Shown: positions 1 through 7,590 of the stretch, piece by piece
Layout of the letters: every line of letters begins with the position of its first letter
How positions within the stretch are numbered: position 1 is the first letter of the stretch
From: Akkermansiaceae bacterium
Lineage (GTDB): Bacteria > Verrucomicrobiota > Verrucomicrobiia > Verrucomicrobiales > Akkermansiaceae
Direction of reading: 5' to 3'
Assembly (NCBI GenBank): GCA_021733795.1
Contig: JAIPKB010000001.1
Location: 1 to 64,000 of the forward strand
DNA: 64,000 bases
The notes under the pieces: generated by a model
What the model was told of the DNA's origin: nothing
The model's input: only the letters and a program-made list of their open reading frames with translations
Database searches by the model: none
Position numbers and translations under genes: made by a program

Positions 1-15
1 GGGGGGGGGGGGGGG
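1..15. other. Poly-G run at window start, possible contig-end or sequencing artefact
   Basis: 15 consecutive G at positions 1-15. Confidence 0.6.
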
Positions 16-2682: not shown

Positions 2683-2884
2683 GTCCGCGCCGCTCCCGAG
2701 AGCCCCCATTCCGGTCATCCAGAGCCCGCCGATCCAAACGGTCGCCGCCGTCGGCGGGAATGGTAGGCATATCCTGCCACAGCAAATCCCAGTAATTGAA
2801 TAGCTTGAGCTAAAAGCTTCGCAAATATGCTGAACAGTTAATCAAATTCTTCTAAAATATTTTGATTTTCTTCTTGACGCGGAG

Positions 2885-2920
2885 GGGTGTTTTGACAATC
2901 CTGAGGATTGTAATACACCC
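2885..2920. promoter_or_regulatory. 36-bp two-step palindrome upstream of the Cys-heptad gene (candidate operator)
   Basis: GGGTGT-TTTG-ACAATCC-TGA-GGATTGT-AAT-ACACCC; both the inner 7-3-7 and outer 6-bp arms are exact inverted repeats; contains TTGACA at 2892-2897. Confidence 0.65.
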
Positions 2921-3004
2921 GCGCTGGATTTTCCATCGCTGCTGTTCGTTCAGCGACCCTCGTTTTTCGCTTCTGCAAACCCCAACCAAGAAAGACTCCC
3001 AACC

Positions 3005-6000
3005 ATGTCATTTCAACAAACCCTAAGGTGCCTCAGGCCCTTGCTTGCCCGCGTCCTGCTGATTGCGGGATTGTGTGTCGGCGGCTTGTTCTGGATCCAG
3101 TCAAATGCGGAACCAGAATTCAGTGCCGCTCTCGATGACGCCTCCCCGCCGACCGTCCAGCTCAGTTTTGAGGCGGGAGAAGACGGAAATTATTATCCAG
3201 AATACTTTGAACCCCCCATCAATGGGGGCCCCGGGCGATGGGTTCCCATCCCCAACGCCGAGCAATTTTTCCACGCAGGCAAACACGTGGTCTTTGTCGA
3301 GGTTCCGGGCGAACCCACCCCGAAGAGCCGCATCCTGCGCATGGTCGCGGCCGACCAGATCATCAGGCCCACTATCTTTCCGGCCTCGGTCACCGTATGT
3401 CGGGTGGAACCGACCAAGTGTCCGCGCAAGGCCACCATTTGTGTCGCTGACGTTGCCACCGTATGTCCCACCGTGGCATTAGCCACCAGTTGTCCGGTCC
3501 AACTCACCCGATGCACCCAGGTCCGCACCCAATGCCCCAGCCGTGCGACCTCCTGCCCGGTCCAGGCGACGACCTGTACGGCCAAACCCCTGCCGACGTT
3601 CTGCGGCGGCGTGGCGACCCAGTGCCCGAAACAAGCCACCCAGTGCGCGTCGGTGATCACGGTTTGCCCAAACCAGCCGACGGCCTGCCCGAAAAGCCGC
3701 ACCCAGTGCCCGACCGTGGCGACCCAATGCCCGGCCAACGTGGCGACCATCTGCCCGCAGCCGCCGCAACTCACCACCTGTCCTGCCAGCTCGACCGCCT
3801 GCCCGCAGATTCAAACCAGGTGCCCGATGCAGGTAACCGCCTGTGTCACCGAACTGACCACCTGTCCGCAAGGCGTCACCTATTGTCCGGAGCAGCCCAC
3901 CCGCTGCCCCACCAAGCTCACCGCCTGCCCGCAGCAGGCCACCCGCTGCCCGGCCGAGGTAACGACCTGCTCGACGAAGGCGACCGTCTGCACGGCGGCT
4001 CCGACCAGTTGCCCGACCGTGATCGACCCCACCCAATGCCCCAGGCTGCAAACCCAGTGCCCGCGTGCCCTGACCGTCTGCCCCAGTGACATCGGAGCGG
4101 CCACGATCTGTGCGGCCGATGTCGAGCCCACCAAGTGCTCGTCGCTTTACACGGCTTGTCCCACCACCGCGACCCTCTGCCCCAGGCAGCGGACCGAGTG
4201 CCCGGCACAGCCGACGCTCTGCCCGATGAACCAAACCAAGTGCCCGATCACGGCGACGGTTTGCCCGCAGGCGACAGCGGCCACAGAGTGCCCCAGAATC
4301 GACACGGTTTGTCCGCAAACCATGGCCACCGAATGCCCGATCATCCAGACCCGCTGCCCGCAAGCACCCACCCGCTGCCCGCTGGGACCTGACTGCCTGC
4401 AACCGACGACGACCCCCGGGATCCCCACGGAATGCTCGGGCCAAGCGACCGAATGCGTGCAGATTTCGACCATTTGCCCGAGACTGCCGTCCGAATGCGG
4501 CGGCGAAGTCACCGTGTGTCCCGCGTCAAGCACCACTTGTCCCAAGCAGGCCACCCGATGCCCGGTGGAACGCACCAATTGCCCGGCGGCCGCCACCAAT
4601 TGCCCGGCTCAGGCGACCGCCTGCCCGCAGGTGCGGACCCAATGCCCGCAGTTTGACACGATCTGTCCCACGGCCGACACGGTCACCATCTGCCCGCCTT
4701 CACTGACCGAGTGCCCCAGGCAGTCCACTCAGTGTCCGCTGGAGCCGACCATTTGTACCACGACGCTGACCACCTGCGCCGGCCAGCAGACGCTTTGTCC
4801 GGATCCCACCGGTGCCACCACCTGCCCGCAGGTGCGGACCGAGTGCCCCTCAAGACCCACCTTCTGCCCGCAGGCCGCCACCCGCTGCCCGGCTTACGAG
4901 ACCATCTGCCCGCAGAACGGCACCATCACCCAGTGCCCGGACAAGGCCACCGCCTGCCCGGCGGTCCCCACCCACTGTCCGCAAGCGGATACCCAGTGCC
5001 CTGAAAAACCGACGTTCTGCCCGGTCCGCTTGACCCAGTGCACCAACGAGCCGACCAACTGCCCGATCGACACCACCAAGTGTCCGCAAGGAGTTACCTA
5101 TTGCCCGGTTGCGGCCACCGCGTGTCCGAGGGTAGCCACCGAGTGTCCGCAGGATCAGTTGACCGCCTGCCCGGTGAAGGAAACCCAGTGCCCGAGCGAG
5201 CAAACCCGCTGCCCGGCCACTGCGACCCGCTGCCCGGCTGAGCCGACGATTTGTGCGCCGGATGCCGTGATGACCCAGTGCCCGGCGACCGACACCGAAT
5301 GCCCGCGGATCACCACCGTCTGCCCGCGGATCGCCACCGCCTGCCCGGTCGAGCAGACCTTCTGCCCGCAGGGTGAGACTTACTGTCCGACCAAACCGAC
5401 GGCCTGTCCGCGCGTTCCCACCGAGTGCCCGGCGGGTGCCACCCAGTGCCCGCGGCAGGCCACGGTCTGCCCCACTCAGCGGACGGCCTGTCCGTCCCTC
5501 CGCACCGAGTGCCCGGCTAGCCAGACCACCTGCCCGGTGATTCCCACCCAGTGCCCCAGCGGCGAGCCGACCATCTGCCCCATTGAGGACACCCAATGCC
5601 CGGTCCAGCAAACGCTTTGTCCGGTGACCACCGGGGCGGCCACCACTTGTCCCTACCTGCCCACCGTGTGTCCGTCCGCCGACGGCACCACCACCCAGTG
5701 TCCGCAGGAAACCACCGTCTGCCCGCAAGCCCAGACCCGGTGCCCGGTCAAACAGACCGAGTGCCCGCAACACGCGACCGGCTGCCCGGTGATTGCCACC
5801 ATCTGCCCATCGGACCCGGTGGATACCCAGTGCCCGATGAAGGAAACCGAATGCCCTGGTAACGGTGCCACCTTCTGTCCCTCAGTGCCCACCGAGTGCC
5901 CCGCCAGCCCCACCAAGTGCCCGGCGGAACCCACCCGCTGTCCGCTGGATCCCGCGCCCACCACCTGCCCGGTTGAACGGACCGTGTGCCCGGTCGGCAC

Positions 6001-7516
6001 CGCCACCGCCTGCCCGACCACGTTCACCGAGTGCCCAGTGACCAGCATGGTGACCCAGTGCCCGGTGGCGACGACCTCCTGCCCGGTGAGGCAAACCGCG
6101 TGCCCGAGAAGTGTCACGGAGTGCCCCGCCGCGGAAACCCAGTGCCCGGAAAGGGAAACGGTGTGCCCGGCGACCGTGACCACTTGCGTGAATGAACCCA
6201 CTCTGTGCCCCACCACCGCCGCTACCATGTGTCCGGTGACCGCCACCGCCTGCCCGCGGGAAATGACCGCCTGCCCGCGGATCACCACCGAGTGCCCGCA
6301 ATCGCCCACCATTTGCCCGCAGTTGACCACCCGCTGCCCGCAACAGGCGACCCAGTGCCCCCAGGCGCAGACCAACTGCCCCACCAAGCAGACCGCCTGC
6401 CCACAGCTGGAAACCGAATGCCCGGTCGCCCAAACCTCCTGCCCGAAGGTTGAGACCGAGTGCCCCCGCAGCCCAACGCAGTGCCCCCTCCTGATCACCG
6501 AGTGCGTTCAGTCAGCCACCCAGTGCGCTACGCAACCCACCCAGTGTGCCACCGGTGCGGTGACCTACTGCCCTGAGGAACCCACCCGGTGCCCGGCGTC
6601 GGCCACCAAGTGTCCGGCCACGGCCACCCAATGTCCCATCGAGCAAACCACCTGTCCGGCGGTCCAGACGGTCTGCCCGGCCAAGGCCACCGAGTGCCCG
6701 GCCGAACCCACCCGTTGCCCGGCCAAGCAAACCGAGTGTCCGGCGGTCCAAACCGAATGCCCGGTTGTCCAAACCGAGTGCCCGGCCCGGGTGACCACCT
6801 GCGTCGGCAGTCCCACCGAGTGTCCGCAGGCGGATACCCAATGCCCGGCTGTGGCCACCGTCTGCCCGACTGTGGCTACCGAATGCCCGGTGGGGACCAC
6901 CGAGTGCCCGGACCCCACCGGCACTTGCGGTCCGACGTTCTTCCCGCGACACGCCACCGAGTGCCCGCCTGACGTGCCCACCCAGTGCCCGGTCAACATC
7001 ACCACCTGCCCGGTCAAGGACACGGAATGTCCGGTGGATGTGGTGAATGTCACTAGTTGCCCGCGCATTGCCACCCAATGCACCGGCACCGCAGCCACCG
7101 AGTGCTCCACCAATTCCACCCAATGCCCAAGTGCCGATCATCCGACGGAATGCCCGAGCGGAGCGGGAGACACCACCACCTGTCCGATCGCGCCGACCCA
7201 GTGCCCGCGGCAGACCACCCACTGCCCGGCGGTGGCGACCGAGTGCCCGCAGATCGTGACCGAGTGCCCGTTTGACCCGACCGTTTGTGGCGAGCCGACG
7301 ATTCTGCCGCAAATTCCAACTGAGTGTCCGCGGATCACCACGGAATGCCCGGTGGGGACCACCGAGTGTCCGGATCCTACCGGTACTTGCGGACCGACCA
7401 TTTTCCCGGACAAGCCCACCGAGTGTCCGCAGCAGGTGACCGTTTGCCCGCGCGTTCAGACCGAATGCCCGACATTCTCGACCGAGTGTCCGGACGCCAC
7501 CGGTGCCTGCCTGTAA
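3005..7516 (+). CDS. Giant secreted Cys-Pro heptad repeat protein (consensus T-x-C-P-x-x-x)
   Basis: N-terminal signal/TM segment (LLARVLLIAGLCVGGLFWIQSNA); about 1370 residues of near-continuous heptads with Cys every 7 residues. Confidence 0.9.
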   Translation: MSFQQTLRCLRPLLARVLLIAGLCVGGLFWIQSNAEPEFSAALDDASPPTVQLSFEAGEDGNYYPEYFEPPINGGPGRWVPIPNAEQFFHAGKHVVFVEVPGEPTPKSRILRMVAADQIIRPTIFPASVTVCRVEPTKCPRKATICVADVATVCPTVALATSCPVQLTRCTQVRTQCPSRATSCPVQATTCTAKPLPTFCGGVATQCPKQATQCASVITVCPNQPTACPKSRTQCPTVATQCPANVATICPQPPQLTTCPASSTACPQIQTRCPMQVTACVTELTTCPQGVTYCPEQPTRCPTKLTACPQQATRCPAEVTTCSTKATVCTAAPTSCPTVIDPTQCPRLQTQCPRALTVCPSDIGAATICAADVEPTKCSSLYTACPTTATLCPRQRTECPAQPTLCPMNQTKCPITATVCPQATAATECPRIDTVCPQTMATECPIIQTRCPQAPTRCPLGPDCLQPTTTPGIPTECSGQATECVQISTICPRLPSECGGEVTVCPASSTTCPKQATRCPVERTNCPAAATNCPAQATACPQVRTQCPQFDTICPTADTVTICPPSLTECPRQSTQCPLEPTICTTTLTTCAGQQTLCPDPTGATTCPQVRTECPSRPTFCPQAATRCPAYETICPQNGTITQCPDKATACPAVPTHCPQADTQCPEKPTFCPVRLTQCTNEPTNCPIDTTKCPQGVTYCPVAATACPRVATECPQDQLTACPVKETQCPSEQTRCPATATRCPAEPTICAPDAVMTQCPATDTECPRITTVCPRIATACPVEQTFCPQGETYCPTKPTACPRVPTECPAGATQCPRQATVCPTQRTACPSLRTECPASQTTCPVIPTQCPSGEPTICPIEDTQCPVQQTLCPVTTGAATTCPYLPTVCPSADGTTTQCPQETTVCPQAQTRCPVKQTECPQHATGCPVIATICPSDPVDTQCPMKETECPGNGATFCPSVPTECPASPTKCPAEPTRCPLDPAPTTCPVERTVCPVGTATACPTTFTECPVTSMVTQCPVATTSCPVRQTACPRSVTECPAAETQCPERETVCPATVTTCVNEPTLCPTTAATMCPVTATACPREMTACPRITTECPQSPTICPQLTTRCPQQATQCPQAQTNCPTKQTACPQLETECPVAQTSCPKVETECPRSPTQCPLLITECVQSATQCATQPTQCATGAVTYCPEEPTRCPASATKCPATATQCPIEQTTCPAVQTVCPAKATECPAEPTRCPAKQTECPAVQTECPVVQTECPARVTTCVGSPTECPQADTQCPAVATVCPTVATECPVGTTECPDPTGTCGPTFFPRHATECPPDVPTQCPVNITTCPVKDTECPVDVVNVTSCPRIATQCTGTAATECSTNSTQCPSADHPTECPSGAGDTTTCPIAPTQCPRQTTHCPAVATECPQIVTECPFDPTVCGEPTILPQIPTECPRITTECPVGTTECPDPTGTCGPTIFPDKPTECPQQVTVCPRVQTECPTFSTECPDATGACL

Positions 7517-7537
7517 ATCCCCACTGACCCCAACCCC

Positions 7538-7590
7538 GTGCGGTCAAGACGGACGTGACTTCGGTCACCACGTCTTGGCCGCACGTTTTT
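7538..7590 (+). terminator. Strong intrinsic terminator downstream of the Cys-heptad gene
   Basis: GTGCGGTCAAGACG / CGTCTTGGCCGCAC 14-bp stem (one G-T wobble) with inner GTGACTTCGGTCAC hairpin, then GTTTTT. Confidence 0.85.

Follow-up and report, generated by a model that had tools for sequence, protein, structure and literature searches.

Exported proteins that are rich in Cys and built of repeats are known from the insect antifreeze beta-solenoids, in which Thr and Cys stand at fixed spacing, and high Cys content is also a property of the metallothioneins. Both serve here as leads only. Genes with a repressor-bound palindrome over the −10 element are likewise a known arrangement. Our analysis of a gene for a Cys-heptad protein showed that its product shares the fixed Thr and Cys spacing and the high Cys content of the antifreeze beta-solenoids, and the high Cys content of the metallothioneins. 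However, it differs from both in its seven-residue T-x-C-P unit, in having no CxC or CxxC, in its ~1400 residues of repeats, and in matching no Pfam or NCBIfam profile at E ≤ 0.1 (nor did two relatives at E ≤ 1). The locus resembles repressor-operator genes in the position of a palindrome relative to the predicted promoter, but here we found no conservation, no further sites and no known regulator. With an ordinary monocistronic unit (sigma-70-like promoter, gene, intrinsic terminator) it shares an AT tract with a −35-like hexamer, one gene, and a GC-rich hairpin with a T run. It departs from such a unit in its weak −10 element, a trait of this genome, and in the hairpins of six homologues, which have no T run. 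Our favoured reading, with a probability of roughly 0.7, is a transcription unit standing on its own, which encodes an exported Cys-repeat protein restricted to this lineage and whose palindrome is peculiar to this genome.

The window, that is, the whole 64,000-nt stretch analysed, covers the opening 64 kb of an 86-kb contig in a lake Verrucomicrobia MAG (6.07 Mb, 318 contigs, 86% complete). Window positions 1–15 are all G, which probably reflects an artefact of sequencing or assembly. The closest named relatives are Akkermansiaceae/Verrucomicrobia genomes assembled from metagenomes, and several of these carry lake isolate names. A scan of the named genomes with the single Cys-heptad protein as query gave no match, while the family alignment found six loci; a plasmid search gave no match. 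Eight homologous copies of the gene were identified in five further genomes of the same genus: one in G018, two in tandem in each of G035 and G054, two in G057, and one, a fragment at a contig end, in G066. A ninth homologue was found in another genus (G279), which brings the homologue genomes to six. The closest homologue is that of G018, with 74% identity over the N-terminal 147 aa and 65% over 1457 aligned residues.

Table 1. Features of the Cys-heptad locus (positions in the window).
Feature	Position	Strand	Basis or remark
Conserved promoter-upstream block: AT-rich tract with TTCTTGACGCG at its end (also given as TTCTTGAC)	2840..2881	+	G018 alignment
Predicted −35 element TTGACG	2874..2879	+	Aligns with CTTG(A/C) of all genus-level homologues; predicted
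Nested imperfect palindrome, perfect core 2895–2911	2885..2920	.	Candidate operator, in this genome only
Predicted −10 element AATCCT, weak, 3 of 6	2897..2902	+	17 nt from −35; low confidence
Cys-heptad gene, 1503 aa, 188 Cys	3005..7516	+	ORF; homologues in six other genomes
Predicted signal peptide, residues 1–35, possible cleavage after S-N-A	3005..3109	+	Suggested by alignment
Small N-terminal beta domain, residues 50–115	3152..3349	+	AlphaFold2 block, pLDDT ~57–85, residues 51–120
Cys-heptad region, T-x-C-P-x-x-x repeats	3392..7513	+	150/187 Cys-Cys spacings exactly 7
Intrinsic-terminator-like hairpin (7537–7585) and TTTTT (7586–7590)	7537..7590	+	20 nt after stop

The first-pass annotation had described the gene as a self-contained regulated unit with an AT-rich upstream region, a perfect nested palindrome as repressor operator, and a terminator. 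The leader is indeed AT-rich, with a GC content of ~0.30–0.37 in 60-nt bins against 0.6–0.8 upstream. When it was compared with the upstream region of the G018 gene, the promoter-upstream block gave the best local alignment, whose score of 36 was reached by 0 of 2000 shuffles. In contrast, the stretch from 2881 to 3004, up to the ATG, was not conserved, since 1095 of 2000 shuffles did as well. The AT tract with CTTG(A/C) was present in all nine genus-level copies, the window copy included, at −109 to −149 nt from the ATG; in G279, from the other genus, the CTTG(A/C) element was not clearly present. A start from a sigma-70-like promoter is the most likely one, and the AT tract and −35 element at 2840–2881 would be its conserved part. 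The homologues have better, TA-containing −10 hexamers at 15–19 nt from their −35 elements, and the −10 elements were less clear overall. In the window the weak −10 coincides with the position of the palindrome, and thus promoter strength or control may differ in this copy.

The palindrome had also been said to cover a TTGACA. This is literally so (2892–2897), but that hexamer was rejected as a −35 element, because no −10 hexamer lies 16–18 nt downstream of it, and the −35 supported by the homologues is the one given in Table 1. A MerR-type geometry, with the palindrome between −35 and −10 elements 19–20 nt apart, was rejected as well: the dyad occupies the place of the −10, and none was found at that spacing. 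Nearer the start codon, at ~20 nt from the ATG, several homologues (L044–L049) share a conserved (A/C)A(A/C)TGATAGAAAG-like element, which the window copy has not kept. The element AATTGATAGAAAG in front of the ATG in several homologues was rejected as a candidate; it is conserved in the family, yet it also occurs elsewhere in those genomes and is missing from the window copy.

The palindrome itself consists of inner arms ACAATCCT-G-AGGATTGT, which form a 17-nt perfect palindrome at 2895–2911, and outer 6-bp arms, GGGTGT at 2885–2890 and ACACCC at 2915–2920. Both pairs of arms are as previously described, but outer and inner arms are separated by 4 nt on one side and 3 nt on the other, and the nesting is therefore not perfect. 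The 17-nt core alone is not more than chance: inverted repeats with an arm length of 8 bp and a loop of 1–11 number 19 in the window and 12–29 in Markov sequence. The nested form is rare but could still arise by chance, as it was observed once in the 64 kb, against 0–3 (mean ~0.6) in eight Markov replicas.

We therefore weighed the proposal that a dedicated repressor acts on this palindrome over the promoter and puts the Cys-heptad gene under metal- or redox-responsive control. The predicted −10 element and start both fall within the palindrome core, where a repressor would usually be expected to bind, and the nested form would be unlikely in the 354-bp leader alone (P ~0.001, by a post hoc definition made after the site was seen). 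However, the palindrome was absent upstream of all nine homologues examined, the eight genus-level copies and G279, and the region around it is the part of the leader that was not conserved with G018. The first-pass annotation had itself named lack of conservation in relatives as evidence against the idea. The search for the site elsewhere in the genome, which it had suggested, revealed no second site with both arms perfect in the 6.07-Mb assembly. With up to three mismatches there were 18 other matches on the two strands, about as many as the ~14 that a simple four-letter count predicts for a random 17-mer, and several of these belong to one interspersed repeat. The best other site, with two mismatches, sits within an ORF. 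No gene for a regulator lies next to the Cys-heptad gene, and the CxC or CxxC spacing of metal motifs is missing from the repeats, so the dedicated metal- or redox-responsive regulator did not find support either. We consider this repressor proposal unlikely. The palindrome would then be an inverted repeat that is due to chance or arose recently or, at most, an operator local to this one gene. The operator keeps a small probability, since a site at this place would cover the predicted −10 and start and might be a recent operator of one gene, even the only site of its regulator. Regulation here would be ordinary, and no case for metal or redox control should be built on the palindrome.

A regulon of palindrome sites was rejected, as the search showed no enrichment. 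The recurrent AGAATCCGGCGGATTGT among the three-mismatch sites was also rejected as an operator, being part of a 30-bp interspersed repeat. This repeat, GTGGTCGTAGAATCCGGCGGATTGTTCCAC, has six near-identical copies in the genome of the window (contigs C20, C33, C120, C137, C201 and C233 of G000) and weaker copies on C48 and C308. A two-mismatch variant of the palindrome site is common to two relatives.

The nested inverted repeat might instead work as RNA, forming a hairpin in the 5′-UTR of a transcript that starts upstream of 2885. The fold has −18.6 kcal/mol (z −3.5), and a 9-of-12 promoter match at 2831–2858 lies upstream of the palindrome. However, a transcript from the conserved −35 at 2874 would start at ~2909, inside the palindrome, and the hairpin would then not be transcribed whole. 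It is also unconserved and has no Rfam match, which makes this RNA reading quite improbable.

At the other end of the unit, the hairpin with TTTTT claimed as a terminator behind the gene was found within a base or two of where it had been placed, with a 15-bp outer stem, a 5-bp inner stem and −37 kcal/mol (z −5.9). Hairpins were located 20–74 nt past the stop codon in 8 of 8 complete copies. Those of G035, G054 and G057 share a common 30-mer, which in a search with up to three mismatches occurred only behind Cys-heptad genes; it shows two compensatory pairs, a count reached by 13 of 500 shuffles, a modest control. In six homologues the hairpin lacks a T run. There it may be a 3′ element that is weak or of another kind, and it may stabilise or process the 3′ end rather than terminate transcription.

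The neighbouring genes are an HD-domain gene upstream (1570–2682, 322 bp gap) and a GFO/IDH/MocA-type gene downstream (from ~7694, 177 bp gap), both on the + strand. None of the four flanking genes (prmA-like, HD-domain, GFO/IDH/MocA, helicase) was found beside any homologue in flanks of ~0.4–8 kb per side; a lone weak GFO/IDH-type match (25% identity) near the G018 gene was differently arranged. These unshared neighbours favour a stand-alone unit and lend indirect support to the earlier statement that the gene has no operon partners. In both genomes with tandem copies, each copy has its own AT tract, CTTG element and hairpin. That the three same-strand genes of the window form one larger operon is very improbable, given the two gaps, the conserved promoter block in the first and the strong hairpin in the second, and the neighbours' lack of conservation beside homologues.

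The view of the gene as a self-contained unit, with its own predicted promoter region, a single gene and a terminator, was thus supported by the sequence and by the same layout in eight further copies. Transcription would run through a 5′ leader of ~95 nt and the one gene, and would end at the hairpin 7537–7590. The layout was probably inherited along with the Cys-heptad gene family, and the palindrome over a weak −10 would be a feature of this genome alone. We would also put forward, at less than even odds, that gene, promoter block and closing hairpin are an inherited cassette, tandem-duplicated in some lake Akkermansiaceae, for an undescribed exported fibre or solenoid with a ladder of some 180 almost invariant Cys seven residues apart.

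The protein family is the part of the locus worth following. Its members are uncharacterised, strongly constrained Cys-repeat proteins of uncultured lake bacteria, encoded by several paralogues in a genome and flanked by conserved control elements. A search of the literature found no description of it. In the alignment the conserved N-terminus begins Arg-rich and continues with a hydrophobic core and, near residue 35, S-x-(A/G), and the models place a helix at residues 3–33; these features suggest a Sec signal peptide. Apart from this helix and the small beta domain, to which no solved fold was matched at E ≤ 0.001, AlphaFold2 gave no confident model, and the repeats had pLDDT under 35. Across the family, Thr stands at −2 of Cys in 96% and Pro at +1 in 80%. 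Within the repeats the Cys-Cys spacing is never below 6 and has its mode at 7, which leaves no CxC or CxxC; the protein thus lacks the clusters of these motifs that a metallothionein-like metal-binding protein would have. In the comparison with G018, 184 of 185 aligned Cys were kept, as against 81% of Thr, 87% of Pro and 46% of the residues other than C, T and P, with dN 0.28, dS 1.05 and dN/dS ~0.27. This near-total retention supports a structural role of the cysteines. Since the protein is predicted to be exported and has no CxC or CxxC, its cysteines would more probably form disulfides than store metal. The product would thus be a Sec-exported structural protein with its cysteines paired in disulfide bonds.

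Two further ORFs show variation around the repeats. The G054 paralogue at L047:7398–12779 ends in a non-Cys segment, fibronectin type III-like by eye and without a Pfam match. In G137, from another family of the order, a 524-aa ORF (L048:4288–5859) has TxCP heptads behind a different N-terminus, and the repeat is therefore wider than the N-terminal domain family.
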